NCBI GenBank assembly: GCA_036984305.1
Contig: BQWY01000001.1
Location: forward strand, 496,001 to 560,000
Direction: 5' to 3'
Source: Nitrospira sp.
Lineage (GTDB): Bacteria > Nitrospirota > Nitrospiria > Nitrospirales > Nitrospiraceae
Length of the DNA stretch: 64,000 bases
The notes below the pieces were generated by a model, which was given only the letters and a program-made list of their open reading frames with translations, was not told the origin of the DNA and did not search any database. Position 1 is the stretch's first letter. Each line of letters starts with the position of its first letter. Shown here one piece after another: positions 5,155-29,162 of this stretch. The translations under genes were made by a program, and so were the position numbers.

Positions 5155-7356
5155 ATGGCCTCGCATGACTCCATCGATCGGCTCATTAGGGCCGAACACT
5201 GGAATCCAACCGAGTTATTGGGACCGCACCCTACCACGGTGAATGGTCGAAGCGCTGTACTCGTACGAACGTTCGCTCCTGAGGCACAGCAAGCAGCGGT
5301 CGTGCTGGACGCGCCGGGGAGCGAGCCTGCGCCGATGCGGCAGGTGCACGAGGCGGGTGTCTTCGAAGCGGTACTGCACAAATCCGACGTAGCCCCAAAA
5401 TATCGCGTGCGGACCAAGGATGGGGCGGGGAACGTGACCGAGCGTCACGACCCCTATGCTTTCGCTCCCCTGATAAGCGACCATGACCTTCACCTGTTTG
5501 CTGAGGGCAAGCTGTTTAAAGCCTACGACATGCTGGGTGCCCACGTGCGGGTCGTCAACGGTATCACGGGCGTGCACTTCGTCGTCTGGGCCCCGAACGC
5601 GATGCGCGTCAGCGTCGTGGGGGATTTCAATCAGTGGGACGGGCGACGCCATCCCATGCTCAGCAGAGGCGCAACCGGGCTCTGGGAGCTGTTCGTGCCG
5701 GACATTTCCGAGGGCACAGTCTATAAGTACGAGATCCGCTCGCGCCATGTCGACGTGCCCTTCACCAAAGCCGATCCGTACGCGTTCGCGGCTGAGCTGC
5801 GACCGCGGACTGCCTCCATCGTCCACCGTTTCTCCGGATACCGCTGGAACGATGAGGCCTGGATGACCGCCCGCGCCGAGCGAGATCAGTTGGCTGCGCC
5901 CTGGTCCATCTACGAGGTCAATCTAGGGTCCTGGATGAGGGTTCCCGAGGAGGACAATCGCTGGCTCACCTATCGCGAATTGGCGGACAAGCTCATTCAT
6001 TACGCCAAATATATGGGCTACACCCACCTCGAGCTGATGCCGGTGACCGAGCATCCGTTCGATGGATCGTGGGGCTATCAGTCGACCGGGTATTTTGCTC
6101 CGACCCGCCGGTATGGACAGCCGGAGGATTTCATGGCGTTTGTCGATGCCGCTCACCAGGCGGGCATTGGGGTCATTATCGACTGGGCCCCGGCGCATTT
6201 TCCGGACGATCCGCATGGGTTGGCCTGGTTTGACGGGACACATCTCTACGATCACGAAGATCCTCGGTTGGGGTTTCATCCGGAATGGAACAGCCGGATT
6301 TTCAACTATGGCCGCGTAGAGGTCCGAAACTTTCTCCTCAACAGCGCGCTCTTTTGGATGGATCGCTATCACATCGACGGGCTTCGCGTGGACGCCGTGG
6401 CGTCGATGCTGTATCGGGACTATGCCCGAAAGGCTGGGGAGTGGATTCCCAATCAATTCGGGGGCAATGAAAACCTCGAGGCCGTGGCCTTCCTCAAGGA
6501 GTTGAACGTGCTCGTGCACCAGGAACATCCGGGCGCCGTGACCATTGCGGAGGAGTCCACGGCCTGGCCCGGTGTCTCCAAGCCCACCTACACGGGAGGC
6601 TTGGGTTTTACCTTCAAGTGGAATATGGGGTGGATGCACGACATGCTGGACTATTTTTCCAAGGAGCCGGTCCATCGCAAATACCACCAGAACCAGATCA
6701 CATTCGGCCTGGTCTACGCGTTCCACGAAAATTTCGTGCTTGTGCTGTCACACGACGAGGTGGTGCACGGAAAGAAGTCGTTGATCGACAAGATGCCCGG
6801 CGACAGTTGGCAGCGCTTTGCCAACCTGCGCGCGTTGTTCGGATACATGTATGGGCACCCCGGGAAGAAGATGCTCTTCATGGGCGGGGAGTTCGGACAA
6901 TGGTGGGAATGGAATCACGATGCGAGTCTCCAGTGGGATCTGTGTCAGTATGAGCCGCATCTGGGCATGCAACGTTACGTGCACGATCTGAATTGGCTGT
7001 ACCGGGAAGATCCGGCCCTTCATGAAGTGGACTTCGATTGGACCGGATTCCAATGGATCGACTTCAACGACGGCGAAAACTCCGTGATTGCCTTCATCCG
7101 CAAGGCCCGTGATCAGAACAACATCATCGTCTGCGTGTGCAATTTTACCCCGGTGCCGAGAGTCGGCTATCGCATTGGCGTCCCGTTCTTCGGGTGGTAC
7201 CGCGAGGTGTTGAACAGTGATTCGGCGACCTATGGCGGAAGCAATCTGGGCAACGGCGGGGGCGTCATGGCGGAGTCCGTGGCCTGCCACGGATTTTCCA
7301 ACTCCCTCTCGCTGACGCTGCCGCCTCTCTCGGTCGTGTACTTCAAGCTGAGTTAG
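5155..7356 (+). CDS. glgB: 1,4-alpha-glucan branching enzyme
   Basis: Cytoplasmic enzyme that makes alpha-1,6 branches in glycogen by cleaving alpha-1,4 chains and transferring them. It has 733 residues, the normal length of the long-form GlgB. Order: two N-terminal beta domains (N1 with HWNPTELLGPHP, then the CBM48-type N2 with VVWAPNAMRVSVVGDFNQWDG), the GH13 barrel and a C-terminal beta domain. Active-site residues are visible: Asp413 in GLRVDAV (nucleophile), Glu466 in TIAEEST (acid/base) and the HDE in LSHDEVVHGKKS. The 53-residue spacing of the first two matches E. coli GlgB (405/458). ATG 5155 is preceded by GGAGG. Its 3' end overlaps the convergent ATP-grasp gene by 14 bp. GlgA and GlgC are absent from the window. 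Confidence 0.97.
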   Translation: MASHDSIDRLIRAEHWNPTELLGPHPTTVNGRSAVLVRTFAPEAQQAAVVLDAPGSEPAPMRQVHEAGVFEAVLHKSDVAPKYRVRTKDGAGNVTERHDPYAFAPLISDHDLHLFAEGKLFKAYDMLGAHVRVVNGITGVHFVVWAPNAMRVSVVGDFNQWDGRRHPMLSRGATGLWELFVPDISEGTVYKYEIRSRHVDVPFTKADPYAFAAELRPRTASIVHRFSGYRWNDEAWMTARAERDQLAAPWSIYEVNLGSWMRVPEEDNRWLTYRELADKLIHYAKYMGYTHLELMPVTEHPFDGSWGYQSTGYFAPTRRYGQPEDFMAFVDAAHQAGIGVIIDWAPAHFPDDPHGLAWFDGTHLYDHEDPRLGFHPEWNSRIFNYGRVEVRNFLLNSALFWMDRYHIDGLRVDAVASMLYRDYARKAGEWIPNQFGGNENLEAVAFLKELNVLVHQEHPGAVTIAEESTAWPGVSKPTYTGGLGFTFKWNMGWMHDMLDYFSKEPVHRKYHQNQITFGLVYAFHENFVLVLSHDEVVHGKKSLIDKMPGDSWQRFANLRALFGYMYGHPGKKMLFMGGEFGQWWEWNHDASLQWDLCQYEPHLGMQRYVHDLNWLYREDPALHEVDFDWTGFQWIDFNDGENSVIAFIRKARDQNNIIVCVCNFTPVPRVGYRIGVPFFGWYREVLNSDSATYGGSNLGNGGGVMAESVACHGFSNSLSLTLPPLSVVYFKLS

Positions 7357-8425
7357 CGTCGTTGTTGGCGGTGCCCACGCGGCTCGGGACCGGGAGGGTC
7401 CGATCCGATGGCGTAACGGAAGGATGCCAGCGTAACCCCAGGTCCAAAATGCGCTGCAGGAGCGTCTTGTAGGAGAGACCGGCCGCCTCGGCTGAGTCGG
7501 CGAAATCCTCCCCCTTGGCGATCTGAGGGTTCGGATTTGCTTCCAGCACGTACACGAGCCCCGATGCCGCGAGCCGCAAGTCGATCCGAGCGTAGCCGCT
7601 GAGCCCCAGACAGCGGTACACCCGCTTGGCCAACTGCTGAATCGAGACGCGCTGTTCGTTCGTCAGGTCGGCCACGTCCGACGACACGTCATATTTCTTC
7701 TGATAGCGGTCGCACCACTTGACCCGGGCGGTGGCGACACGTCGAGCGTCGTCCGGCAATTGGCTCAAGTCGAGTTCCCAGACAGGAAACACTCGGAGCC
7801 GTTGGTTCCCCAGTACCCCAACATAGAGTTCCCTGCCTTCGATAAAACGTTCGACCAAGGCGCCGGTGCCGACGTTTTGATGCACGAATCTGATCCGTTC
7901 CTGGAGCTTGTCGTCGTCCTCGACGATCGAGGCCTGCGAGATGCCCAATGAGGCCTCCTCCGACACGGACTTCACGATCAAGGGGAACGGGAAGTCCTTC
8001 GGGCGTTTGACGGATCGGCCCAATGGTACCGTGATGAATTCGGGAATCGGAATATGATGGTAATAGAGGATCTTGTGGGCCACACCCTTGTCGCGGGCCA
8101 ACATCAGGCCTCGAGGGTTGCATCCGGTGTAGGGAACTTTCAAGAGTTCCAGATACGACACCACATTTTGGTCGTAGACGGCCGTGCCGCTGAACTCTTC
8201 CAAGAGATTGAAGGCGATATGCGGTTTCCATTCGTCTACAGCGGTCCTAATGACGCCCAAATCGTCACGTACGCCGAGTGCTCGCACATCATGTCCCACG
8301 GTGCGCAGCGTGGTGACGACGTCGTACTCGGTCCGCCATTCGGCCTTGCTGGTATCGATGCCCGTGACCATGTCGGGCGGCACCAGGTCTTCGTGCATGA
8401 GCGCGAGGATTCGGAGGGGTTTCAT
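7343..8425 (-). CDS. ATP-grasp ligase, D-alanine-D-alanine ligase-like
   Basis: This 360-residue protein has an ATP-grasp fold related to D-Ala-D-Ala ligase. The N-terminal domain holds KPHIAFNLLEEF and the substrate-loop-like TGCNPRGLMLARDKG. The ATP-binding part has PLIVKSVSEEAS and a specificity segment around GALVERFIEGREL. The Mg2+-binding end reads YVLEANPNPQIA. Genuine Ddl enzymes usually end EVNTxPG at this point, so the amino-acid substrate may differ and I do not call it ddl. It starts inside the stop of the upstream zinc-peptidase gene (ATGA, 8422-8425). The two are therefore almost certainly translated together and may act on the same peptide or amino-acid substrate. Confidence 0.82.
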   Translation of the reverse strand: MKPLRILALMHEDLVPPDMVTGIDTSKAEWRTEYDVVTTLRTVGHDVRALGVRDDLGVIRTAVDEWKPHIAFNLLEEFSGTAVYDQNVVSYLELLKVPYTGCNPRGLMLARDKGVAHKILYYHHIPIPEFITVPLGRSVKRPKDFPFPLIVKSVSEEASLGISQASIVEDDDKLQERIRFVHQNVGTGALVERFIEGRELYVGVLGNQRLRVFPVWELDLSQLPDDARRVATARVKWCDRYQKKYDVSSDVADLTNEQRVSIQQLAKRVYRCLGLSGYARIDLRLAASGLVYVLEANPNPQIAKGEDFADSAEAAGLSYKTLLQRILDLGLRWHPSVTPSDRTLPVPSRVGTANNDANSA

Positions 8426-9483
8426 AGGGCCACGCGGTGGTGTCCTCCGTGGAGGTAGTTCATCGTTTGGACGGTCAGCAGAATGGTCACGTCCAATTTG
8501 GCCCTGGCCTCGGGAATCGCAAGACGAAGTTCCTGTTCACGACAGCACGACAGGATGTCGTCGAACACGCGATCAATGGTGTACTGGTACTCACCCGTCC
8601 AGCTCGCGACCTCGCGGCGCACCTCGGCACGAATACGCGAAAGAAACTGCACGGCAGTCGGGTTTTCCTGATAAGCCGGTCCGTCGGAAAAAATGCGCCG
8701 GAGATCGCGATCGTAGATGGTCGGGTGGGGCGACCCGTAGTGTTCTTGCTTGCGGGCATAGTGTTCACGCAAGGTACGGCGGAGGCGGGGCAGCGTATCG
8801 ACCCGCTGTTTCGTGGTGACCGCCGGCCGGGCGCCGGCGAGCGCCGTCATGATCCCGTCCATGTATTCCAGTTTCTTCATGGCCGGCCAGCCTGCATAGC
8901 GTTCGCGCCATTGTGAGTCGGGATTGAGCCAGACGGCAAACGTTTCTGCAAAGTCCTCGTCGGGGTGGCTCTGTGCGTACCACATGTCCAGATGCTGGAC
9001 ATAGTTCTGGCTGTACGGTTTGGGTTTATAAAACGTTGGATAGGGTTGACTGGAGCTCCCGAAGAGCAGCTGGCGCTCACGGCGGCGGCGCAGACGGTAC
9101 GCATTATCGATGGCGTGGCCGGCCTCGTGTCGAAGGATCCGCAGACACCACTCCGGCGTGCCGCCTTCCACCTCCAACATTTGGGCCTGCTCTAACTTGG
9201 CCAGGCGGGGGTGGGCCAGATAGAAGGGGACGGCGATACCCGGGACCCCGTCGGGAGAAAACCACTCTTCGGACAGCCAGAAATGGGGCCGGCACACCAA
9301 GCCACGTGCAGCCAATTCCTCCTGCAAGCGGCGAATGGGTTCCGCGGCGGAACTTTGCTCGATCGTCAGGCGGAGATCGCAGAGCCGTAAGTCGAGCAAT
9401 CGTTCATCGGACCAGTCGGCCCATTCGGGTTCCGAACGCGACGGCGTTTCGGACGCGGCATCTGAGGGGTGAGACGGGTTCAT
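8422..9483 (-). CDS. Putative zinc-binding metallopeptidase (Peptidase_Mx-like)
   Basis: This 353-residue soluble protein has no signal peptide. It contains HEAGH at residues 119-123 (zinc ligands His119 and His123, catalytic Glu120) and a downstream DEDFAETFA segment (Glu180), which probably gives the third ligand. This arrangement fits the family annotated as putative zinc-binding metallopeptidase, for which no substrate is established to my knowledge. The N-terminal ~35 residues are acidic and probably disordered. Its stop overlaps the start of the ATP-grasp ligase gene by 4 bp, a fixed operon-like pair. A protease plus a peptide-bond-forming enzyme suggests peptide modification, but that is inference. 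Confidence 0.75.
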   Translation of the reverse strand: MNPSHPSDAASETPSRSEPEWADWSDERLLDLRLCDLRLTIEQSSAAEPIRRLQEELAARGLVCRPHFWLSEEWFSPDGVPGIAVPFYLAHPRLAKLEQAQMLEVEGGTPEWCLRILRHEAGHAIDNAYRLRRRRERQLLFGSSSQPYPTFYKPKPYSQNYVQHLDMWYAQSHPDEDFAETFAVWLNPDSQWRERYAGWPAMKKLEYMDGIMTALAGARPAVTTKQRVDTLPRLRRTLREHYARKQEHYGSPHPTIYDRDLRRIFSDGPAYQENPTAVQFLSRIRAEVRREVASWTGEYQYTIDRVFDDILSCCREQELRLAIPEARAKLDVTILLTVQTMNYLHGGHHRVAL

Positions 9484-9549
9484 GTCCTGGGTCCCACTCT
9501 CGGCGCAATCCTCCCCGCCCGCCGGATGAACCGTGCACGACGCATAGAC

Positions 9550-10470
9550 CTAGGCCGCGTGGGTCGGTGTCGGAGCTGAGTTCCACCCCGCCACATGGAG
9601 CGGTGGCGGCGTCCCCTGCTTCGGTTCGCCCCAGTAGATCGTCCGATGCGGAAACGGAATCTCAATCCCTTTGGCATCAAAGGTCTTCTTGATTCGTCGA
9701 TTCATTTCGCGTCCGACGCGCCACTGCTGACAAGGATTGGTCTTGATTCGGCACTTGATGATCACCGCCGAGTCCGCGAACTGGTCAACCCCCAGCATCT
9801 CGAGCGGCTCGAGGATGTCGGCCGCAAACTTAGCGTCACCACGCAGCTCCTCCGCGATGTCCTTCAAGACGGCCATGACCTCATCGACGTCTTCTCGATA
9901 CGCGACCCCGACGTCGAACAAATAGTAGGAATACAGCTTTGTCATGTTCTTCACCCGGTCGATCACGCCGTTGGGCACGACATGGACGTTGCCCGACAGG
10001 TCCCGGAGCGTAATCGTGCGGAGTTTGACCTCCTCGACCAATCCACCGACCCCAGCGACCTCCACGACGTCCCCGACGCGTACGGAATCCTCCAGAAGAA
10101 TGAAGAATCCCGAAATCACATCTTTCACGAGACTTTGTCCCCCGAACCCGATCGCCAAGCCGCCAAGTCCCGCCGCAGCCAAGAGCGGTTTGAGATCGAC
10201 GCCCACTTCAGACAGGATCATCATGGTGCCGATTGCCAGAATGAGGACGCGGGCCACGTCCCGGACCACGTGTGTCAACGTATCCACGCGTTTCCGCTGC
10301 CCTGGGCTGTGCAAGGCGCCCTCGTACAGTGTTCGGAACCGAAGGACCAACCGCTTGACCAGGGACAGCAGTATCGCCATGGCGATGAGGATGATCATCA
10401 TGCGCAATCCACTGGTCGATAGCCAGAGGATCGACAGGTCCAAGACGCGGCTCACAGGCGAAGACGACAT
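9550..10470 (-). CDS. Mechanosensitive ion channel, MscS family
   Basis: This 306-residue inner-membrane channel has three N-terminal transmembrane segments. The last is the glycine/alanine-rich pore helix (LAAAGLGGLAIGFGGQSLVKDVISGFFIL), followed by the beta domain (VGDVVEVAGVGGLVEEVKLRTITLRD, then VPNG) and the alpha/beta C-terminal cage. Members open under membrane tension and release osmolytes after hypo-osmotic shock. GGGAGG precedes the ATG. It lies between the zinc-peptidase gene and treZ on the same strand and is one of three MscS-type genes within 7 kb. Confidence 0.93.
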   Translation of the reverse strand: MSSSPVSRVLDLSILWLSTSGLRMMIILIAMAILLSLVKRLVLRFRTLYEGALHSPGQRKRVDTLTHVVRDVARVLILAIGTMMILSEVGVDLKPLLAAAGLGGLAIGFGGQSLVKDVISGFFILLEDSVRVGDVVEVAGVGGLVEEVKLRTITLRDLSGNVHVVPNGVIDRVKNMTKLYSYYLFDVGVAYREDVDEVMAVLKDIAEELRGDAKFAADILEPLEMLGVDQFADSAVIIKCRIKTNPCQQWRVGREMNRRIKKTFDAKGIEIPFPHRTIYWGEPKQGTPPPLHVAGWNSAPTPTHAA

Positions 10471-10535
10471 AGGATGCCTCCCATTCTTATATAAGTGATT
10501 GATGCAAGCGGCTCAAGACCCGACCAAGATTGGGA

Positions 10536-12407
10536 TCACCGGCTTGGGGATAGGAGCACGCAGGCGGCATAGGGTGGAAGTGTCAGTCTCGCTCCATCGG
10601 GTCGAATCGCAAACCGCCGCTCCGTGGCGGTCACCCCCGATCCGCCGTATTCCGTCGCAGATGAGTCGAGGTATCGGTGCCACTCGCCGACCGGTTCCGT
10701 GAGAGACAGCCGTGCCGGCATGGCGTTGAAGCTCAACAATATCAATGCCTGGTCGCCTTGGTCCAGCCATCGATGGAGGATCAAGACCTGCTCCGACTCG
10801 TCGGCTCTGACCGAGTGATGCGAGGAAACGCCGTCGCCGAGCCCGAGAACAGCGACGGATTTTCTCGCCTCGATCAGCGCCATGGTCCACCGCAGCAGGT
10901 CCCGCTGCCGAGCATTCAAGCTGTCCAGGGCGAGCTTCGACCGTAGGAAAGTGGCTTCATCTTGCGGATCCGGGATCTCGTCCGGTTGCCACCCGAAGGC
11001 CGAGAACTCGGAGCGTCGGCCTTGACGGACCGCCTCGATGAGCGTCGGGTCACCGTGCTCGATGAAGTATTGAAAGGGCGCGGTCTCGCCGTATTCCTCA
11101 CCCATGAATAAGAGTGGAATGGAGGGAGACAGGAGGACGACCGTCCGGGCCACCTTGAGGGCGTCCCACGAGAGGGTCGTACTGAGGCGGTCGCCCTTCG
11201 CACGATTGCCGATCTGATCGTGATTCTGGGCAAAGACGACGAACTGGGAGGGCGCGCAGTGCTCAGATGAATTCCCATGCCGTCGTCGGCGGTAGGCGGA
11301 GTAGTGCCCCCCGTGTACAAAACCTTGACGCACCGCGGTGGCCAAATCCTTGAGTCCACCGAAATCCTCGTAGTAGCCCTTTCGTTCGTCGGTCAGGGTG
11401 ACGCGCAGGGCATGGTGGAAATCATCGTTCCACTGGGCATCCAGTCCGAAACCTCCGATCCGTGGTGGATCGATGATGCGGGTGTCGTTGAGATCGCTTT
11501 CGGCGATGACATGCACGGACCGATTGAGGCGGGCGCTCAGCGCGTGGATCTCCCGAGCCATCTCTTTGAGCAAGTGGGTGGCACTGAAATCGAAGATTCC
11601 GTGAATCGCATCCAGTCGCAATCCGTCCATGTGATATTCGGCGATCCAATAGAGTGCATTGCTGATCACGTGATGGCGAACAGCGTCGCTGTCCGGCCCG
11701 TCGTAGTTGACCGCCGATCCCCACGGCGTTCGGTATCGGTCGGTGAAATAGGGGCCGAAGTCTCCCAAGTAGTTCCCCTCGGGACCCAGATGGTTGTAGA
11801 CCACGTCCAGGAGCACCGCCATGCCTGCGGCGTGGCACGCGTCGACAAGCCGTTTGAGCCCATCTGGACCGCCATAGGTCGATTGGGGGGCGAACAAGTG
11901 TACGCCATCGTAGCCCCAGTTACGCCTTCCGGGGAATTGAGCGATCGGCATCAATTCAATGGCCGTGATCCCAAGGGATTTCTTCAGATAGGGGAGCCGG
12001 GGGATGATGGCATCGAAGGTGCCGTCGGGAGTGAAGGTGCCCACGTGAAGCTCATAGATGAGCAACTGGTCGCGCGACACACCGGCCCAACCGGCGTCCG
12101 TCCACCGAAACACGTTCGGATCAATGACAGCCGATGGTCCATGTACGCCTTCAGGCTGGCTGCGCGAGGCGGGATCCGGTCTGCGGAGCGTGTCGTTGAG
12201 CAGGTAGCGGTAGGAGGTTCCTGTCCGAACCCCGTCCACCGTCCCTTCGAAACCACCACCGAAGGACGGTCGAAGCGAAACGACGTGTGGATTCGGCCCG
12301 AGAAGTTCGACCGTAACGCTTCGAGCCTTCGGCGCCCAGACGTGAAACCGGACTCGGTCGGGACCGCACACTCTGGCCCCAAGGTCCAATTCCCATGGTT
12401 CGGTCAC
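10536..12407 (-). CDS. treZ: Malto-oligosyltrehalose trehalohydrolase
   Basis: GH13 enzyme that hydrolyses the alpha-1,4 bond next to the terminal trehalosyl unit of maltooligosyltrehalose, releasing trehalose; it normally works with TreY. The start is set at GTG 12407 because GGGAGGA lies three bases upstream and the family N-terminus (WELDLGARVCGPDRVRFHVWAP) follows at once; the frame stays open to 12476. The product is ~623 residues. It has a CBM48-like N-domain and barrel motifs LLIYELHVGTFTPDGTF, DVVYNHLGPEGNYL, GLRLDAIHGI, VIAESDLND and FAQNHDQIGNR. TreZ and isoamylase are related, but the LHVGTFTPDGT motif and HLGPEGNYL favour TreZ. No treY or treS is seen in the window. Confidence 0.92.
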   Translation of the reverse strand: MTEPWELDLGARVCGPDRVRFHVWAPKARSVTVELLGPNPHVVSLRPSFGGGFEGTVDGVRTGTSYRYLLNDTLRRPDPASRSQPEGVHGPSAVIDPNVFRWTDAGWAGVSRDQLLIYELHVGTFTPDGTFDAIIPRLPYLKKSLGITAIELMPIAQFPGRRNWGYDGVHLFAPQSTYGGPDGLKRLVDACHAAGMAVLLDVVYNHLGPEGNYLGDFGPYFTDRYRTPWGSAVNYDGPDSDAVRHHVISNALYWIAEYHMDGLRLDAIHGIFDFSATHLLKEMAREIHALSARLNRSVHVIAESDLNDTRIIDPPRIGGFGLDAQWNDDFHHALRVTLTDERKGYYEDFGGLKDLATAVRQGFVHGGHYSAYRRRRHGNSSEHCAPSQFVVFAQNHDQIGNRAKGDRLSTTLSWDALKVARTVVLLSPSIPLLFMGEEYGETAPFQYFIEHGDPTLIEAVRQGRRSEFSAFGWQPDEIPDPQDEATFLRSKLALDSLNARQRDLLRWTMALIEARKSVAVLGLGDGVSSHHSVRADESEQVLILHRWLDQGDQALILLSFNAMPARLSLTEPVGEWHRYLDSSATEYGGSGVTATERRFAIRPDGARLTLPPYAACVLLSPSR

Positions 12408-12536
12408 AGTTCCTCCCACATGTCGCTCACACCATACCGACGCGGTGTGCGCTAAACAAGTCCGTGAGATCAACAAATTCCGCTTGCATAAGGATGCTGA
12501 CCCACCTACAAGTCAAGTCGAAAGGGTCGAACCCCG

Positions 12537-13439
12537 TTGGACGCGCTAGCTGACTCCTCCCTTGAGTGGAAGGCACAGGTGGATGAGCGGTGGATTTATA
12601 CGGCGGTGCTTGCCGTGGCGCTGCTGGCCGCCACGCGTCTGGGCGAGTGGGCGATGGAGCGCGCCGTTTCCGATGAGCGATGGCGCTATACCATCCGTAA
12701 AGTCATTCGGACGGCTGCCGCCAGCATCTTTCTTGTCACCGCGATCGGAATATGGGCCCAACGCCTGCAAGGGTTTCTGCTGGTGCTGGGCGCCACGGGG
12801 GCCGGGTTTGCCATCGCGCTGGCGCCCGTCCTCGTGAGTCTTGCCGGATGGGGACTGATCATATCGTCGGGATTATATAAGGTGGGCGACCGCGTCCAGG
12901 TCGGCGGAGTCATCGGGGACGTGACCGATATCGGCATGATTCGTACGTCGTTGCTGGAGATCGGGAACTGGGTGCAGGCCGACCAGTTGACGGGACGCGT
13001 GGTGGCCGTGTCCAACGGGGCTGTGTTCAAGGACCCAGTCTTTAACTACACGCAGGGGGCACCGTACATTTGGGACGAGTTTACGGTGCCGATCGCGTAT
13101 GGACCACAATGGGAGCGGGCGGAAGCGATCATGCGCGAGACGGTCGGTCATGAGACCCGAGAGATCGAAGAATCGGCGAGCGATGCGCTGCGACGTCTTC
13201 CCGGCATCTCGCTGTTGGGGATGCCGGATACGCACGCGCAAGTGTACGTCTCGCTGACCGAACACTGGGTGGCCTGCACGGCGCGCTATGTCGTTCCCGC
13301 CCGCTCCCGCCGAACGGTGAAACATCGCTTGCAGGTGCAGACGCTCAAAGCGCTTGCGCGGGCTGGAATCGAGATCGCTTCGCCGGCACTCACGGTGGTA
13401 CGCTATCCTGCCCCAAGAACGTGGAAGGAGGACGCATGA
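12537..13439 (+). CDS. Mechanosensitive ion channel, MscS family
   Basis: This ~300-residue membrane protein has three predicted N-terminal helices. The pore-lining helix is GATGAGFAIALAPVLVSLAGWGLII, followed by the MscS beta domain (VGDRVQVGGVIGDVTDIGMIRTSLLEIG, then RVVAVSNGAVFKDPVFNYT). It belongs to a different MscS subfamily from the channel at 9550-10470. The frame opens at TTG 12537; GTG 12579, preceded by GGAAGG, is an alternative start. Its stop overlaps the glgX start by 4 bp (ATGA), so channel and debranching enzyme are translationally coupled. It is transcribed divergently from treZ across 129 bp. Confidence 0.9.
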   Translation: MDALADSSLEWKAQVDERWIYTAVLAVALLAATRLGEWAMERAVSDERWRYTIRKVIRTAAASIFLVTAIGIWAQRLQGFLLVLGATGAGFAIALAPVLVSLAGWGLIISSGLYKVGDRVQVGGVIGDVTDIGMIRTSLLEIGNWVQADQLTGRVVAVSNGAVFKDPVFNYTQGAPYIWDEFTVPIAYGPQWERAEAIMRETVGHETREIEESASDALRRLPGISLLGMPDTHAQVYVSLTEHWVACTARYVVPARSRRTVKHRLQVQTLKALARAGIEIASPALTVVRYPAPRTWKEDA

Positions 13440-15574
13440 GAGTGTGGCCGGGAAAGCCCTATCCATTGGGTGCCACGTGGGACGGTGAAGGTGTGAACTT
13501 TTCCTTGTTTTCAGAAAATGCCACCGCCGTGGAATTATGTTTATTCGATGGTCCGGATGCAATTCAGGAATCGTACCGCATCCGTCTGGAGGAACGGACC
13601 GATCAAGTCTGGCACGTCTATATTCCAGGCCTCTGGCCGGGGCAGCACTATGGTTACCGGGTTCACGGTCCGTATGATCCCGGCCAGGGCCACCGGTTCA
13701 ATCCATACAAGCTCTTGATCGATCCGTACGCCAAATCGATCGCGGGAACCGTCGAATGGTCCGATGCGATGTTCGGCTACCGGATCGGCGATCCGCGTGC
13801 TGATCTGACATTGGATGCTCGGGATAACGCCGACAACGTTCCGAAGTCTGTCGTGGTGGATCAGGCGTTTACCTGGGGAGGCGATCATCTGCTCAAGACG
13901 CCGTGGGACAAGACCATCATCTACGAGGTCCACGTGAAGGGGTTGACGGCCCGCCATCCGGACGTTCCGGAGCATATGCGCGGAACCTACTCGGCACTCA
14001 CGACACCCGCCGTCATCGATCATCTCCTGCATTTGGGCGTGACCGCCGTGGAACTCTTGCCCATTCACCAATTCGTGCGGGACAAGCATTTGGCCGATCG
14101 GAACCTGACCAACTATTGGGGGTATAACACGATCGGATTTTTCTCTCCCGACATTCGATACGCGGTCTCACCGGTGCGCGGACGGCACGTGCGCGAGTTC
14201 AAAACGATGGTGAAGACCCTGCACAGTGCCGGCATCGAAGTCATTCTCGACGTCGTCTATAACCATACCGCGGAGGGCAATCACCTGGGCCCGACCTTGT
14301 CGTTCCGTGGAATCGACAATGCGTCCTACTATCGACTGGTCGACCACGATCGTCGGTATTACATGGATTACACGGGATGCGGCAATACCCTCAACGTGAC
14401 GCATCCGCGTACCCTGCAGCTCATTATGGACAGTCTCCGTTATTGGGTGACCGACATGCACGTGGATGGGTTCCGGTTCGATCTGGCATCCGCGCTCGCG
14501 CGCGAACTGCACGCCGTCGATCGCTTGGGGGCCTTCTTCGACATTCTCCATCAGGATCCGATTCTGTCTCAGGTGAAACTCATCGCCGAGCCTTGGGATA
14601 TCGGTGAAGGTGGGTATCAGGTGGGTAACTTTCCGGTCGGATGGGCGGAATGGAACGGGAAGTACCGGGACACGATTCGGCGCTATGTCAAAGGTGACGG
14701 CGGGCAGGTGGCCGAATTGGCGTACCGGCTGACGGGAAGCAGCGACCTGTACAGCATGAGCGGCCGAAGACCGTATGCCAGCATCAATTTCATCACGGCC
14801 CATGACGGCTTCACGCTTCACGATTTGGTCTCGTACAACGAGAAGCACAATCTCGACAACGGCGAGGATAATCGAGACGGGAGCGATGACAATGAAAGTT
14901 GGAACTGTGGGGTTGAGGGACCAACGGACGATCCGAAGATCGTCGACCTTCGCGAACGGCAAAAGCGCAATTTCTTGACCTTGCTCTTTTTTTCGCAGGG
15001 TGTGCCCATGTTGTGCGGCGGAGATGAAATCGGGCGGACGCAAGGAGGGAACAACAACGCCTACTGCCAGGATAATGAAATCAGTTGGTTTGACTGGAAG
15101 CTCGACCGGGCCCAGCGGGATTTTCTCGAGTTTGTCCGTGCGCTCATCGCCTTCCGGAAGCGCCATCCGGTATTGCGGCGACGTCGTTTCTTTCAGGGAC
15201 GACACATCCGCGGCTCCGAGGTGAAGGATATCGCCTGGTTTCGACCGGACGGCAAGGAAATGACCGATGAGGACTGGAACGCCGGCTACGTACGCTCCTT
15301 GATGCTGCGCTTGGCCGGTGATGCCATCAGTGAGACCGATGAGAAAGGGCGACCCGTCGTGGACGACACGTTGCTCATGCTTTTGAATGCGCATCACGGA
15401 CCGCTCGCCTTCACCCTGCCGGCCCACAAGCGCGGCGTACGGTGGCAGCCGCTACTCGATACCGCCATTGCTCCGGGAGCAGAGAAACCCGTCTCCATTC
15501 TCAAGGGAGGGGAGCGCTACGAACTGGAGGCTCGATCGATTGCCGTGCTCCGCATCAGCGAGCGCGCCTCGTAA
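13436..15574 (+). CDS. glgX: Glycogen debranching enzyme GlgX (isoamylase type)
   Basis: Cytoplasmic GH13 enzyme that hydrolyses alpha-1,6 branches, usually of limit dextrins produced by glycogen phosphorylase. ATG 13436 is chosen because AAGGAGG precedes it and MRVWPGKPYPLGATWDGEGVNF is the typical start; the frame extends 15 bases upstream. It has 712 residues, close to the family norm. Motifs: CBM48 N-domain, YEVHVKGLTARHPDVP, DVVYNHTAEGNHLGPT, Asp349 in GFRFDLASAL (nucleophile), Glu385 in LIAEPWDIG (acid/base) and ITAHDGFTLHDLVSYN. It overlaps the upstream MscS gene by 4 bp. A second, more divergent paralogue lies at 53488-55551. Confidence 0.95.
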   Translation: MRVWPGKPYPLGATWDGEGVNFSLFSENATAVELCLFDGPDAIQESYRIRLEERTDQVWHVYIPGLWPGQHYGYRVHGPYDPGQGHRFNPYKLLIDPYAKSIAGTVEWSDAMFGYRIGDPRADLTLDARDNADNVPKSVVVDQAFTWGGDHLLKTPWDKTIIYEVHVKGLTARHPDVPEHMRGTYSALTTPAVIDHLLHLGVTAVELLPIHQFVRDKHLADRNLTNYWGYNTIGFFSPDIRYAVSPVRGRHVREFKTMVKTLHSAGIEVILDVVYNHTAEGNHLGPTLSFRGIDNASYYRLVDHDRRYYMDYTGCGNTLNVTHPRTLQLIMDSLRYWVTDMHVDGFRFDLASALARELHAVDRLGAFFDILHQDPILSQVKLIAEPWDIGEGGYQVGNFPVGWAEWNGKYRDTIRRYVKGDGGQVAELAYRLTGSSDLYSMSGRRPYASINFITAHDGFTLHDLVSYNEKHNLDNGEDNRDGSDDNESWNCGVEGPTDDPKIVDLRERQKRNFLTLLFFSQGVPMLCGGDEIGRTQGGNNNAYCQDNEISWFDWKLDRAQRDFLEFVRALIAFRKRHPVLRRRRFFQGRHIRGSEVKDIAWFRPDGKEMTDEDWNAGYVRSLMLRLAGDAISETDEKGRPVVDDTLLMLLNAHHGPLAFTLPAHKRGVRWQPLLDTAIAPGAEKPVSILKGGERYELEARSIAVLRISERAS

Positions 15575-15697
15575 TCGCAGCATCCCGCGGCGACAGGCAC
15601 CCCTGCGCGCAGATTGGCTCTGGATTGCGGACGGACGTTGGTATAGGATCCACCGCTATCCATTGCTGTCCATGCCTCACATTGCTCCACGGAGTCG

Positions 15698-16558
15698 GTG
15701 CTTTCGGCGAAACAAGGGCACGCGCTTGTGAACCTTCACAGTCTTTGGGACACCGTCTGGGCGACCGTCGAAGGAAGCGTCTCACACGTGGTCGCTTTCC
15801 TCCCGAAGCTCCTGGGAGCCCTGCTGCTCATCCTCGCCGGGTATGTGCTGGCACGGATGGTCGGGGCCGGTACGGCGGCGGTGTTGAAGATGGTGGGTAT
15901 CAATCGGCTGTTGGATCGTACGCCGATCCAAACGCTGCTGGCACGAACCGAATCGCAGAAAACCAGTGCCGACGTGATCGGTACCCTGGTCTCGTGGCTT
16001 ATTTTTCTCCTTTTCGGAATCTCAGCCGCGGATACGTTGGGACTATCCGCCGTGTCCTCGGCGTTGACCGATTTGGCACGGTATCTCCCTCGCGTAGGGG
16101 TCGCGGTGTTGATCGTCGTGCTTGGCATGCTGGCCACGACGTACATCAAAGAGTTGATCGGGCTGGCCTGCCTGTCGGCCGGCATCCCGCAAGGGCCATT
16201 GGTCGCGCAAACGTTTTACGTCGCCGCACTGCTGGTCGTATTCGTAACGGCCATCAACGAACTCGGAATCGACACGATGCTCTTGAACAGTTCGGTCCTG
16301 ATCGCGTTCGGGGGGTTGATAGCCGGGGCGGCCCTGTCGTTCGGACTCGGTGCGCGCGGCGCCGTCGCCAATCTCATCGCGGCGCACTACCTGCAGCCCG
16401 TATTCCGCGTCGGTCAGACGATCCGTGTGGCCGACATACAGGGACAAATTACCGCCATTACCCCGGTCGCCGTGGTTCTCGATACGCCCAACGGACGCAT
16501 CGTGGTGCCAGCCGTGCGATTCCAGGAGGCCAGTACCACCATCGAGCCGTCCGGCTAG
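15698..16558 (+). CDS. Mechanosensitive-channel-like protein with TM_helix repeats
   Basis: This 286-residue membrane protein has about five hydrophobic segments. Two similar stretches (LPKLLGALLLILAGYVLARM and YLPRVGVAVLIVVLGMLATTY) match the conserved TM_helix repeat found in CmpX/MscS-related proteins. A glycine/alanine-rich helix follows (AFGGLIAGAALSFGLGARGAVANLIA) and then a short beta domain (FRVGQTIRVADIQGQITAITPVAVVLDTPNGRIVVPA). It lacks the large C-terminal cage of MscS. GTG 15698 opens the frame; GTG 15728 is an alternative, with AAGGG upstream. Three bases separate it from the MgtE-like gene, suggesting co-transcription with the magnesium block. Confidence 0.85.
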   Translation: MLSAKQGHALVNLHSLWDTVWATVEGSVSHVVAFLPKLLGALLLILAGYVLARMVGAGTAAVLKMVGINRLLDRTPIQTLLARTESQKTSADVIGTLVSWLIFLLFGISAADTLGLSAVSSALTDLARYLPRVGVAVLIVVLGMLATTYIKELIGLACLSAGIPQGPLVAQTFYVAALLVVFVTAINELGIDTMLLNSSVLIAFGGLIAGAALSFGLGARGAVANLIAAHYLQPVFRVGQTIRVADIQGQITAITPVAVVLDTPNGRIVVPAVRFQEASTTIEPSG

Positions 16559-16561
16559 CAG

Positions 16562-17452
16562 ATGAACGCGGAGTCCCGCCTCACCCTGGCGTACTTGAAA
16601 GCCTATCCGCTCGAGGCTGTGAAGCAACTCGAAAGCTGGCCCGCGCAGGAGGTGGTGGCGGTGTTGTCGGACTATGCGGAGGACGAGATCGCGGCTATCC
16701 TCGAGCATGCACCGGCGCATGTCGCCGCGGATGTTCTACTCCTGCTTCCCCGTGATCGAACCGTCACCATTCTAGCCTCGCTTCCGTCCCCGGCTGCCAT
16801 TGGAGTCTTACGACAGTGTGACCGGCAGCTCCAGCGCGAGCTGTTATCCCAGCTGGATACCATCGTCGGTCCAGGCCTTCGATCGAACATTCTCCATGCT
16901 GAAGGTTCTGCGGCCAGTCTGGCCGACCCCCGCATGCTCACACTGGCCCCGGACGTCTCCGTCGCCAGTGCGCTGGAGTGGATCAAGCGCAACCCCCAAC
17001 GGGCCACCTATTACCACTATGTGGTGGAGCGAGACGGCGCGTTGGTCGGGATGGTCACAACCAAGCAACTTCTGATCGCCGAGCCCACGCAACTGGTAGC
17101 GACGATCATGACGGATCAGATCGAAACGGTCCCTGCGGACGCGGCGGGTGAAGAACTGCGGCAACATCCCCAGTGGCGACGCTATCCCATGCTTCCGGTT
17201 GTAGACCGAAACGGATTACTGGTCGGGGTCCTTCGGCATCAGGCCCTGCAGCGGTTGCGCGATGAGGGCATCGTCCCGGCCGCAGGCAACGTGCTTTCTG
17301 ACACCCTGATCAAGGTGTGGGAAACCTACGCGCTGGTCGGGTTGCGGATCATGACGGACCTAGTCCAGGTGGTCGAAACAAGCATGACCGAGGCGCCGAG
17401 GGATCCGCGCCAGGAAGGACGCCCCGATGATCCGACACCGGCAACTTCATGA
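16562..17452 (+). CDS. Soluble MgtE-like protein: MgtE N domain plus CBS pair, no membrane domain
   Basis: This 296-residue protein has the cytosolic half of an MgtE magnesium channel but no membrane segment. Residues ~10-120 show the helical MgtE N-domain pattern (LESWPAQEVVAVLSDYAEDEIAAIL), and ~125-250 carry two CBS motifs (VVERDGALVGMVTTKQLL and VVDRNGLLVGVLRHQAL). The C-terminal ~45 residues form one helix, then a proline-rich tail. In MgtE the N and CBS domains bind Mg2+ and close the pore, so a stand-alone copy could be a Mg2+ sensor or regulatory partner. It overlaps the following full-length mgtE by 26 bp, which supports that idea; function is inferred. Confidence 0.8.
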   Translation: MNAESRLTLAYLKAYPLEAVKQLESWPAQEVVAVLSDYAEDEIAAILEHAPAHVAADVLLLLPRDRTVTILASLPSPAAIGVLRQCDRQLQRELLSQLDTIVGPGLRSNILHAEGSAASLADPRMLTLAPDVSVASALEWIKRNPQRATYYHYVVERDGALVGMVTTKQLLIAEPTQLVATIMTDQIETVPADAAGEELRQHPQWRRYPMLPVVDRNGLLVGVLRHQALQRLRDEGIVPAAGNVLSDTLIKVWETYALVGLRIMTDLVQVVETSMTEAPRDPRQEGRPDDPTPATS

Positions 17453-18725
17453 AGCCTTCTTCGCGGGCCATCCCGAGGAAGCGGGGCACCTCTTGGAATC
17501 GTTCGAGACGGAGGAGATCGTGGATTTGCTCCGTGTCACCCCTCCACGTGTGATTGCGGAATTGCTGTCTTCCATGAACCCCGCGCTGGCCGCCGAGACC
17601 TTGTGGTCCTTGCCGGACGACGTGGGCACGCAGGTGCTCCGCTCCTTTACCCCCGACGACGCGGCTGCCCTGCTTGGCCGTATGAACCGCGCGCGCCAGC
17701 GTGTGCTGCTCCGAAACGCGCCCCAGGCCTTGGCCAAAGAAATTCGGCTGTTCATGGCCTATCCGCCCGAATCCGTGGGCAGTTTGATGGATGCCGGAGC
17801 CTACGCCTTGCCTGAGGATTTTACCGTTGAGGAAGCCGTCCGGGACGTTCGTAAGCGCGCGCCGAAAGATCTCTATGACGTCTACATTCTCGATCGCAGG
17901 CGGCATCTGGTCGGGGTCCTGTCCGTACGCGACCTGCTTCTCTTGGATCCGGAAGAACGGTTGCAGTCCGTGATGCGGCGCGATGTGCCGCATATTCACC
18001 CGATGGCCAATCGGGAAGAGATTGTCGAGGTGTTCGAATCCCAGCGTCTCATGAGCATCCCAGTCGTGGATTTGGATCAGCGATTGCTCGGCACCATCAA
18101 ATACGAAGACATCGTCAAGGCGAGTCAGGAGGATGCCACGGCCGACCTCCAAACGATGGTCGGCGCCAGCCGAGACGAGCGCGCGCTCTCCCCGATCTGG
18201 TTCTCCGTACGGAAGCGCCTCGGATGGTTACAGGTCAATCTCCTCACGGCCTTCCTGGCGTCCTCGGTTGTCGGGATGTTCGAGGACGTCATCGCGCGAT
18301 TCACGGCGCTGGCGGTCTTGTTGCCGGTCGTGGCCGGGCAGTCTGGCAATACGGGCGCACAGTCCTTGGCGGTGGTCATGCGAGGACTCGCGCTGCGGGA
18401 CATCCGGCCGGCACAGTGGCTGCGTGTGAGCGGGAAAGAATTCGGCGTTGCACTCTTCAATGGCGTGGCCGTGGCCGCGACGACGTCCGCGGCCGTCTAT
18501 TGGTGGAGCCGCTCCCCGGGTCTGACGCTGGTGATCGCCGTGTCGATGGTCACGTCGATGTGTATCGCTGGCTTCTCAGGGGCGATTATTCCCATCATGC
18601 TCAAGTCGCTCAATCAAGACCCGGCCCAATCGTCCTCCATTATCCTGACGACCGTCACGGATGTGGTGGGTTTCTTCAGCTTTCTCGGCCTGGCGACGGC
18701 ATTCTCTCAGCTCTTGTCGTCGTAG
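17427..18725 (+). CDS. mgtE: Magnesium transporter MgtE
   Basis: This 432-residue Mg2+ channel has the complete family architecture: helical N domain (residues ~1-115), CBS pair (~125-250, with VYILDRRRHLVGVLSVRDLL and IPVVDLDQRLLGTIKYEDIV), a connecting helix and five C-terminal transmembrane helices (~275-430). Pore-region signatures are present: VVAGQSGNTGAQSLAVVMRG in the second TM region and TTVTDVVGFFSFLG in the last, where the aspartate corresponds to the ion-selectivity Asp of Thermus MgtE. The start overlaps the preceding soluble MgtE-like gene by 26 bp. A convergent CNNM-type gene follows after 26 bp. Confidence 0.95.
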   Translation: MIRHRQLHEAFFAGHPEEAGHLLESFETEEIVDLLRVTPPRVIAELLSSMNPALAAETLWSLPDDVGTQVLRSFTPDDAAALLGRMNRARQRVLLRNAPQALAKEIRLFMAYPPESVGSLMDAGAYALPEDFTVEEAVRDVRKRAPKDLYDVYILDRRRHLVGVLSVRDLLLLDPEERLQSVMRRDVPHIHPMANREEIVEVFESQRLMSIPVVDLDQRLLGTIKYEDIVKASQEDATADLQTMVGASRDERALSPIWFSVRKRLGWLQVNLLTAFLASSVVGMFEDVIARFTALAVLLPVVAGQSGNTGAQSLAVVMRGLALRDIRPAQWLRVSGKEFGVALFNGVAVAATTSAAVYWWSRSPGLTLVIAVSMVTSMCIAGFSGAIIPIMLKSLNQDPAQSSSIILTTVTDVVGFFSFLGLATAFSQLLSS

Positions 18726-18751: not shown

Positions 18752-19774
18752 TCAGGAGCGTTTGGCGATCCCTCGCAAAAGACGTCCGAGCAAATCGGCC
18801 CCGGTGATGAGTCTGCGTTGCGCTCCCCACAGCAGGATGGCGTCATTGCCGATCAGATGGTCTCCGGACGGCGTGCGATCGAAGTTCAGCTGCTGGATGA
18901 CTTTTCCCAACGGCTCGGTGCAATCGCGCACGATGACCGGGCGATGGCAATACGCCGTTGGATCGGTGACGTCGGACGTCAACAGGGCGTGTCGGAGAAA
19001 TCCGTCGGCATCCATGATGAAGTGCGGTTCGGACTGCTCATCCGTAATGATGACCCAAGGTCTGTCCGAGGCGTTGATACGTTGAATCAGGGGATCATCG
19101 GGACGTTTTTGAAATGGGGGGAAGATCGGGATCCCCTCTCGAATCGGAAGATGGAGCATACTGGCCGGGTCGATGGGAACGCCTTCTTGTTCGATGGGAA
19201 TGTCGTCGATGGTGAGGAAATTCAGCGCGCCGATGGCTTCGACGCGGCTGACTTCCGTGTGCTCGTTGTCCATGTGGCGGCGTAACAGTTCCTTGATCTC
19301 TGATTCGCGAAAGTACGCGACCGCTTCCTTGCCGAGCCAGGCGTCGAGGATCAGCGCGGAGGGTTTGACGACGGGAAACAGCATCAGACGGTAGAATCGC
19401 AACAGTGGGGCAAACAGCGCCGCTACGCGGACGCCGTGGCGGGAGCAGTAGGCCTGCGGAACGATTTCACCGAGGATCGTGATGAGAAACGTCGAGAAGA
19501 GAAACGCCGTGACGCCCGCCATCACCGAATTCGAGAGCAGTGTCAGCAGCACGTTGATCCCGACATTGCCCCAGAGAATCGTGGCCAGAGTTTCATTAGC
19601 GTGGTCGCGCAGCTGGAGGACGGCGCGGGCGCTGTAGTTCCCGCTCGCCGCTTCCGCTTCCAGGCGCAGACGCCCCAGGCTGAAGACGGCAAGGTTGAGT
19701 CCTGAGAACAATCCCGATTGCAGCAGACAGACTCCAATCCCAATCCACGTGAGCCACTCGGCGGTCATGCCCAT
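18752..19774 (-). CDS. CNNM/CorC-type (DUF21) transmembrane protein
   Basis: The protein has ~340 residues from ATG 19774. The frame stays open to 19903, but the membrane domain begins just after MGMTAEWLTWIG, and no good ribosome-binding site separates the candidates. The N-terminal DUF21/CNNM region has about four hydrophobic segments (LLQSGLFSGLNLAVFSLGRLRLE, ILWGNVGINVLLTLLSN, FLITILGEIVPQAYCSR). A basic stretch and a divergent CBS-like C-terminal part follow (~170-340); the usual C-terminal CorC_HlyC domain seems absent. CNNM proteins are linked to Mg2+ and Co2+ transport, which fits the convergent mgtE 26 bp away. Confidence 0.83.
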   Translation of the reverse strand: MGMTAEWLTWIGIGVCLLQSGLFSGLNLAVFSLGRLRLEAEAASGNYSARAVLQLRDHANETLATILWGNVGINVLLTLLSNSVMAGVTAFLFSTFLITILGEIVPQAYCSRHGVRVAALFAPLLRFYRLMLFPVVKPSALILDAWLGKEAVAYFRESEIKELLRRHMDNEHTEVSRVEAIGALNFLTIDDIPIEQEGVPIDPASMLHLPIREGIPIFPPFQKRPDDPLIQRINASDRPWVIITDEQSEPHFIMDADGFLRHALLTSDVTDPTAYCHRPVIVRDCTEPLGKVIQQLNFDRTPSGDHLIGNDAILLWGAQRRLITGADLLGRLLRGIAKRS

Positions 19775-19923
19775 TGTCACAAGAGGTGCATAGCGGATCC
19801 GGCGACCCACTCTAGCAGGATGGGGAAGGGGCTTCCAGCGTCTGTTCGTCACGCGTAGCAGGGGCGTGCGCGATACGAGACGACGAACACGGCGCGGGAG
19901 CAAATGTGGCCGATTGGGCCGGG

Positions 19924-27950: not shown

Positions 27951-29162
27951 TCACTTGGCTGAGGCTTCCTTTGACCCGGACGTGTGGTCGGGCTCGGGAC
28001 TGGTGAGGAGGTCGTACCCCTTCGACGGCGTGACGACCCGCACACTGTCACCTTCGAGCAAAGCAACACTGGGGTTGTTCACGATGCGGTCAGTCGAAGA
28101 GACCCCTTCGGCCACCTCGACCGTGCTATCCATGAGCTTGCTCACGGTGATCGGTTGGAAATGGATGTGGTCATCCTCCGTGACCAGCGCGACTTGCGTT
28201 CCATGCTCCTGAAACACCAACGCGGTGGATGGGATGGTGAAGACCTTTCTGTCGACCGGTGCTGTGAGATGCACCTGGGCGAAAGATCCCGGCCACAGAG
28301 CCCTGTCCTCGTTGTCGATGGTAAAGACAGTGACGGCGGTTCGGGTGCTTACATTAAATCCTTTGGCGACGGTCAAAAACTTGGCGGTAAATCGACGGTT
28401 GGGAAGCTGTGGTGCCGTCACTTCCGCCGTCAGGCCCGGTTGCAGGAAGGGCCCAAACGTCTCCGGCACGTTCACAAAGAGACGCAGGGTGTCGACGACG
28501 GCCACGGTGAAGAGGTTCGTGATGCCCCCGGGAGTGTTGAGTTGGCCCTCCTTGCTGACCAAGTCGCCGACGTTGATATTGCGCTGAATCACCATCCCCT
28601 CAAAGGGCGCGACGATCTTCTTGAAACCGATGAAGGCTTCAATGTTTCGCACTTTCTGTTCCGCCGCCTTCACGACCGCCTCCTGCGCCTGCATGTGTTT
28701 TTCTTGTACCGTAATCGCCTGCTCGGAGACGGCATGGGATTGGCGCATCGCCTGATAGCGCTTGGCGGTGACTACGGCAAGCGCATACCGGGCCCGTTCC
28801 GATTCGAGATCGGCTTTGGCCTGGCTGTATTCGGCGTCGAGGTCCGGCGTATTGATCTCGGCCAGAATATCGCCTTTCTTCACTTCGTCGCCGTAGTCCT
28901 TGTACCACATCTTTACGTAACCCGTGACGCGCGCGTAGATCGGCGCCTCGTACCACCCTACGATGTTGCCGGGAAGCGTGATGGTCTCGCTCGGTGGCAC
29001 CGGCTTGGGGTTCACAACGGCCACGGTTTGGACCGCGTTCTCGTGCGTCTGCTCGCGCAGCAGCGCGGCATCGCTCCCGCTGAGGTAGGTCCGGTAGCCG
29101 ATGTAGACGGCGACAAGCGCAATGATGATCAACGCAATGCGTGTTCCTTTGGGTGATTTCAT
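27951..29162 (-). CDS. RND efflux periplasmic adaptor (HlyD/AcrA family)
   Basis: About 403 residues from ATG 29162, which overlaps the stop of the upstream permease half by 4 bp (ATGA). A single N-terminal membrane anchor (TRIALIIIALVAVYIGYRTYL) without lipobox is followed by a lipoyl half (APIYARVTGYVKMWYKDYGDEVKKGD), a coiled-coil hairpin (residues ~120-190, with SEQAITVQEKHMQAQEAVVKAAEQKV), the second lipoyl half (APFEGMVIQRNINVGDLV), and beta-barrel and membrane-proximal domains. An open frame continues upstream to 29537, but that part is a shadow of the permease. It couples the split RND permease to the NodT-type channel. Confidence 0.93.
   Translation of the reverse strand: MKSPKGTRIALIIIALVAVYIGYRTYLSGSDAALLREQTHENAVQTVAVVNPKPVPPSETITLPGNIVGWYEAPIYARVTGYVKMWYKDYGDEVKKGDILAEINTPDLDAEYSQAKADLESERARYALAVVTAKRYQAMRQSHAVSEQAITVQEKHMQAQEAVVKAAEQKVRNIEAFIGFKKIVAPFEGMVIQRNINVGDLVSKEGQLNTPGGITNLFTVAVVDTLRLFVNVPETFGPFLQPGLTAEVTAPQLPNRRFTAKFLTVAKGFNVSTRTAVTVFTIDNEDRALWPGSFAQVHLTAPVDRKVFTIPSTALVFQEHGTQVALVTEDDHIHFQPITVSKLMDSTVEVAEGVSSTDRIVNNPSVALLEGDSVRVVTPSKGYDLLTSPEPDHTSGSKEASAK

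Follow-up and report, generated by a model that had tools for sequence, protein, structure and literature searches.

The msc-sol-mgtE locus

The window analysed here is a 64-kb stretch within the 4.35-Mb genome of Nitrospira sp., and all coordinates are given relative to it. In it, the genes msc, sol and mgtE follow one another closely on the same strand (Table 1). An earlier note on this DNA had described a soluble protein overlapping a full-length mgtE by 26 bp, which the open reading frames bore out. The note had delimited the unit as 16562-18725; this took in sol and mgtE and left out msc, which ends only 3 bp upstream of sol. As judged from homologues, the true start of msc may lie approximately 30 bp further downstream than the longest-ORF start. 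The stretch AGGAAGGA is located inside sol, upstream of the mgtE ATG.

Table 1. Genes and features at the msc-sol-mgtE locus, in window coordinates.
Feature	Position	Strand	Description
glgX	13421-15574	+	Glycogen debranching enzyme, upstream of msc
msc	15698-16558	+	MscS-like membrane protein, 286 aa (longest ORF)
sol	16562-17452	+	Soluble protein with MgtE_N and CBS pair (Sol), 296 aa
Sol C-terminal helix, residues 247-276	17300-17389	+	Motif LxxxWExYxLxGxxxMTD; position of the MgtE plug helix and membrane domain
sol/mgtE overlap	17427-17452	+	26 bp
mgtE, module-specific subfamily	17427-18725	+	432 aa; pore motif GQSGNTGAQ; pore Asp (Tt D432) retained
CNNM-domain protein	18752-19903	-	PF01595; no CBS match

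The region 5155-15574, all of it upstream of the module, contained the genes for GlgB, TreZ and GlgX together with a full MscS (9550-10470, reverse strand) and a second MscS beta-domain protein (12537-13439). This osmolyte/glycogen and mechanosensitive gene cluster hints, by association only, at an osmotic or carbon-storage physiology. Control of the module by an M-box or another riboswitch was considered and rejected on the basis of an Rfam scan, in which no upstream element was found: the window gave no match at gathering scores, and the interval 15300-17600 gave none at E values up to 5. Elsewhere in the window, two overlapping ORFs were noticed at 29159-32360 on the reverse strand. One of them, of 505 aa, matched ACR_tran over positions 4-498 of the 1021, the N-terminal half of the pump of RND type, and the pump gene may be split in two.

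Sol consists of the cytosolic MgtE domains and a helix of its own

Profile searches with Sol matched PF03448 (MgtE_N, 2.3e-7) and PF00571 (CBS, 7.5e-8) and no membrane domain. With respect to the MgtE channel family, the MgtE_N domain and the CBS pair were thus present and the PF01769 pore domain absent, and the pore-helix positions 325-332 were gapped in all 30 rows of the Sol alignment. Residues 10-235 of Sol aligned without gaps to the same residue range in its MgtE neighbour at 26% identity. The AlphaFold2 model of Sol (pLDDT 82) displayed the N domain, the CBS pair and, modelled at low confidence, the C-terminal helix 247-276. Its top structural matches were cytosolic domains of MgtE (5x9g_C: VIA Z 23.2, rmsd 3.3, 231 residues).

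All 56 distinct Sol proteins were 277-323 aa long (longest ORF). A C-terminal motif with LW[EQ]xY, the L being only loosely kept, was present in 51 of them, and the remaining five had a related aromatic helix. The maxima of the 19-residue mean hydropathy ranged from 0.88 to 1.77 in 30 Sol representatives, located before residue 240 in 26 of these, and were at least 1.98 in 30 module MgtEs. The possibility that Sol is a membrane protein was therefore rejected, as none of the 30 representatives had a stretch matching the membrane-like peaks of the MgtE partners. A loss of membrane helices by frameshift, raised in the earlier note, was looked for in the homologues by the same length and hydropathy data and was seen in none.

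Of 194 close pairs, 40 were analysed for dN/dS of sol. The printed values for which dS was defined lay at 0.025-0.167, dS being high or saturated in many pairs. Judged from the sequences, Sol is under purifying selection and is not a broken mgtE, because it is conserved, is apparently selected against change and carries its own conserved C-terminal helix.

The MgtE of the module

The 432-aa protein encoded next to Sol matched MgtE_N, CBS and PF01769 (2.5e-31), reached 280 bits against the TIGR00400 cutoff of 232.75 and has the pore Asp432, all of which identify it as an MgtE channel. Together with the profile matches of Sol, they confirmed a protein with MgtE_N and CBS only next to a complete partner. 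The pore Asp432 was retained in 30 of 30 module MgtEs. In phylogenetic trees, the pore domains of the module MgtEs formed one group with weak support (62/34); their N/CBS parts split into two groups with long branches and did not form a single one.

We also considered the loss of the intrinsic gate as a special feature of the module. The Tt (Thermus thermophilus) positions N332/N424 are Ala/Ser in module MgtEs, and N332A/N424A mutants of MgtE are described in the excerpted text of PMC8104411, from which the gate positions were taken, as having raised sensitivity to Ni2+. The candidate was rejected because 16 ordinary MgtEs from relatives also lacked Asn at these positions (Leu/Cys; Gly/Ser or gap).

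The MscS-like gene msc

The protein encoded by msc matched the PF05552 helices and gave no match to the MscS C-terminal domain PF21082, which was matched by the neighbouring MscS at 9550-10470. The beta-domain match was below threshold in the msc of the window (PF00924, 19.4 against a cutoff of 20.2), and the msc of locus L138 scored 27.4, above it. The best Foldseek matches of the msc model were MscS proteins with an E value of 8e-6 but a TM score of only 0.24; the model is of low confidence, and at pTM 0.42 the pore of msc is uncertain. Its putative likeness to the MscS/YnaI family would comprise the pore helix and the beta-domain; msc differs in the missing match to the MscS C-terminal domain. 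A gene of the msc type was not found at 17 loci of ordinary MgtE (16 genes), most of them with a flank of approximately 1.5 kb. Two distant msc relatives (L152:4590-6244, 40% and L153:5041-6741, 37%) were without sol and near a transglycosylase gene.

Distribution and conservation of the module

Fifteen of 99 relative genomes carried 22 sol, 22 msc and 22 mgtE genes of the module type, counted at identity floors of at least 34%, 49% and 58%, respectively. The mgtE copy of genome G070, counted among the 22, was in two pieces (74%, and 42% for the N piece). By their coordinates, the three genes were adjacent in the order msc-sol-mgtE at all 22 places, and at these identity levels none of them was found in the genomes outside the 15; the next-best matches outside the module in the 99 relatives were 38% for MgtE and 40% for msc. 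The module was missing from 84 of the 99 relatives and is therefore accessory. Two distant Sol relatives (30% and 26%; G096 and G083) were apart from msc, in genomes also holding the module; they correspond to the loci L040 and L049 described below. The conserved neighbourhood on which the earlier note had made its idea depend was thus present, both at these 22 places and at the loci from named genomes described below.

The order msc-sol-mgtE was found in the window and in 18 of 20 loci from relatives. In one exception, L040:4284-6454, a divergent Sol relative is followed by an MgtE-like protein with N and CBS domains. The latter is degenerate, with no PF01769 match and no pore motif, and msc was not found there. 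At the other exception, L049:5490-6362, a Sol relative stands by itself, and no msc or mgtE was found within the 12 kb of this locus.

Among 52 loci from named genomes, 50 held sol; L104 (Flavobacterium) has an ordinary MgtE, and L103 begins inside the module with sol cut off. Of those 50, 48 had msc immediately before sol and 47 had an mgtE after it; the five absent partners, two of them msc, coincided with contig ends. The closest named relatives of Sol were in Nitrospira MAGs, and 49 of the 50 titles were Nitrospirota or members thereof. The single Verrucomicrobia MAG (L071, a 3.3-kb contig) is probably misbinned. As the scan of named-genome contigs used two peptide patterns and missed the divergent modules L135-L140, divergent modules may exist outside Nitrospirota. 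These six divergent loci belong to other families and, in part, to one further class; five of them had msc-sol-mgtE, and in L139 the sequence begins at the edge of a contig. In a sample of 395 genomes of the phylum, at least 25 had a sol-type ORF.

Altogether, 56 distinct loci had all three genes in the same order. Duplicates (named copies of L033-L052; L141-L144) and contig-edge loci were dropped before these counts, as were L071, L103, L104, L139, L040 and L049. L050 and L079, which share a contig, were dropped as well, since their module mgtE (L050:3209-4509) is present as two ORFs of 217 and 188 aa, reflecting decay or an assembly error. In the 51 loci with measured gaps, the genes were on one strand, with a gap of at most 5 bp between msc and sol, and with sol and mgtE contiguous or overlapping. 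The 30 Sol representatives and two divergent relatives formed one tree group with support 98/97, and the branching of Sol resembled by eye that of its MgtE partners, including the two copies present in several genomes. The distance matrices of the three proteins were correlated at r 0.94-0.97 across the 56 loci, which shared ancestry alone gives as well. As far as gene order and sequence tell, the three genes are a real conserved and co-inherited module.

The flanks of the module varied, and since they were short at many of the 56 loci, the following counts of neighbours are lower bounds. GlgX- or MalQ-like ORFs were upstream in 25 of the 56 loci, a CNNM-like ORF was a downstream neighbour in 16 (one being an 86-aa fragment), and a soluble protein of approximately 255 aa was downstream of mgtE in 20 (e.g. 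L037:3871-4638). The CBS pair of this downstream protein was identified by Pfam in L037 and by similarity in the 19 other loci. The CNNM-like ORF and the downstream CBS-pair protein were never found together at one of the 56 loci.

Magnesium ligands and nucleotide site

The Mg2+-ligand positions of Thermus MgtE and the ATP-site positions of MgtE were taken from the excerpted texts of PMC5882242 and PMC5529423, respectively. Six ligand acids of the N and CBS domains were scored (Tt E59, D91, D95, D226, D247 and D250) in a selection of 30 Sol and 30 MgtE rows, and a larger set of 56 and 53 rows agreed. Thermus MgtE has all six. Sol retained on average 0.2 of 6, with none at all in 24 of 30 proteins, and the module MgtEs retained on average 0.9 (30 rows). 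Ordinary MgtEs of relatives were also poor in ligands (mean 1.8 of 6 in 16 rows, some gapped or truncated), so the module MgtE does not stand out sharply by its loss. The pore of the module MgtE thus looks intact, and both Sol and MgtE appear to have a weak form of the known Mg2+ brake or none.

At the ATP positions, Sol had Tyr at 170 in 25, Lys or Arg at 187 in 28 and Phe or Tyr at 227 in 28 of 30 proteins, and the ribose-binding Asp (188) was replaced by Gln or Glu in 26 of 30. Charge complementarity between Sol and MgtE at the CBS dimer (D226/D250) was examined and rejected, both proteins being mostly basic or neutral there.

Related systems

The earlier note knew of no described system of this kind, which does not hold for soluble MgtE fragments as such. 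According to the excerpted text of Shin et al. 2014 (PMC4072509), most NrmT genes have a neighbour that encodes an MgtE-like cytosolic fragment, for which feedback regulation is proposed; rescue was no better when the A. capsulatum fragment was expressed together with its NrmT. Like Sol, this fragment is a stand-alone MgtE cytosolic domain next to a metal transporter and a proposed regulator. It differs in having an NRAMP partner and five of the six ligands, whereas Sol has MgtE and MscS-like partners and its ligands are gone. The neighbours of Sol were msc and mgtE and no NRAMP at every named locus with room and at five of six divergent loci. The six fragments of the NRAMP-associated kind that were scored here (L145-L150, the NRAMP neighbour being confirmed in L146) had five of six ligand acids each.

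In L146 (Nitrospirota), a PRC-MgtE_N-CBS protein is followed by an NRAMP, according to Pfam. At the loci L145-L148, the MgtE_N/CBS protein is 420 aa long and the next ORF encodes 407-412 aa; the two frames overlap by 4 bp at three of these loci and are 41 bp apart at the fourth. Among the matches listed for the phylum sample, many frames of 420-440 aa resemble the L145-L148 kind and are candidates only.

The cytosolic domain of Thermus thermophilus MgtE (2yvy, 5x9g) has the fold of N domain and CBS pair in common with Sol, but lies within the channel chain and has Mg2+ ligands and a plug helix; Sol has neither and is encoded on its own. An MscS-like gene next to a Mg2+ channel homologue has a parallel in Pseudomonas aeruginosa, where cmaX (a CorA homologue), cfrX and cmpX (a predicted MscS) are described in the excerpted text of PMC7641640 as a putative operon transcribed from at least two promoters; the likeness of CmpX to msc is one of description. 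Stand-alone MgtE fragments are thus already known, and a description of the msc-sol-mgtE arrangement was not found in searches of the open-licence PMC literature.

A possible role for Sol

MgtE is a model channel that closes as cytosolic Mg2+ rises, and CBS pairs commonly dimerise. We consider Sol, with a probability of about one half, to be a regulatory subunit dedicated to the Mg2+-channel module that msc, sol and mgtE encode, and infer its binding partners and signal. Most likely, Sol is a regulatory subunit of a special MgtE subfamily and does not itself sense Mg2+; it is perhaps coupled to the MscS-like partner. Sol would join the N/CBS module of the co-encoded MgtE, or use its aromatic C-terminal helix to dock on the membrane parts, and bound Sol would set when the MgtE pore opens. 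Because Sol and its MgtE are both poor in the known cytosolic ligands, cytosolic Mg2+ is probably not what they respond to, and with the Mg2+-sensing residues lost the cluster would therefore probably control Mg2+ flow by another signal. This is probably a nucleotide bound to the CBS pair, membrane tension relayed by the MscS-like partner, or both. If this is true, relatives of nitrite oxidisers would show that a detachable subunit and a signal other than Mg2+ can govern MgtE pores, and the question of what a soluble MgtE half does, already posed by the NrmT-associated fragments, would have a directly testable case in this module. In an extended and clearly more speculative version, the three proteins would form one Mg2+ channel complex, possibly gated by both tension and nucleotide, in which Sol, as an MgtE-derived subunit not sensing Mg2+, gates the MgtE pore and also binds the minimal MscS-like protein, linking the membrane or osmotic state to the Mg2+ flux.

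Sol might instead chiefly serve the MscS-like protein, replacing its missing C-terminal domain as a cytosolic gate or coupling tension to the Mg2+ pore. The constant position of msc directly upstream of sol, the absence of msc without sol at 49% identity or more in the 99 genomes, the lack of PF21082 in msc as compared with the neighbouring MscS, and the P. aeruginosa operon, as excerpted, are consistent with this. However, the kinship of Sol is with the cytosolic half of MgtE, whose target in Thermus is the very pore of MgtE, and the two distant msc relatives near a transglycosylase gene do without Sol, and we regard such a role as rather improbable.

Somewhat less probable still is a role in the cytosol as a sensor for signalling or energy state, in which Sol would bind adenine nucleotides and have its targets elsewhere, e.g. 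among the adjoining glycogen/trehalose enzymes. The partial ATP-site residues of the CBS pair, the GlgX/MalQ-like ORFs upstream and the second soluble CBS-pair protein downstream would fit a sensor of this kind, but the ribose Asp is mostly lost and such neighbours were not seen at the other loci (many of them short-flanked), where msc and mgtE were constant.

The earlier note had suggested a separate gating or signalling subunit. A distinct conserved protein tied to a full MgtE is upheld by the data, and the Mg2+ sensing that went with it is not. A Mg2+-sensing feedback subunit like the NrmT-associated fragment agrees with the MgtE-type domains, fold and gene order of Sol, yet it is unlikely in view of the 0.2 of 6 ligand acids in Sol versus 5 of 6 in the NRAMP-associated kind.

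A functionless, decaying duplicate of mgtE might account for the faster divergence of Sol (33-53% identity to the window protein versus 56-78% for MgtE; printed values, every eighth of 55), but is highly improbable, being contradicted by the dN/dS well under 1 in the computed pairs, by the uniform length and C-terminal motif and by the co-retention across families and one other class.
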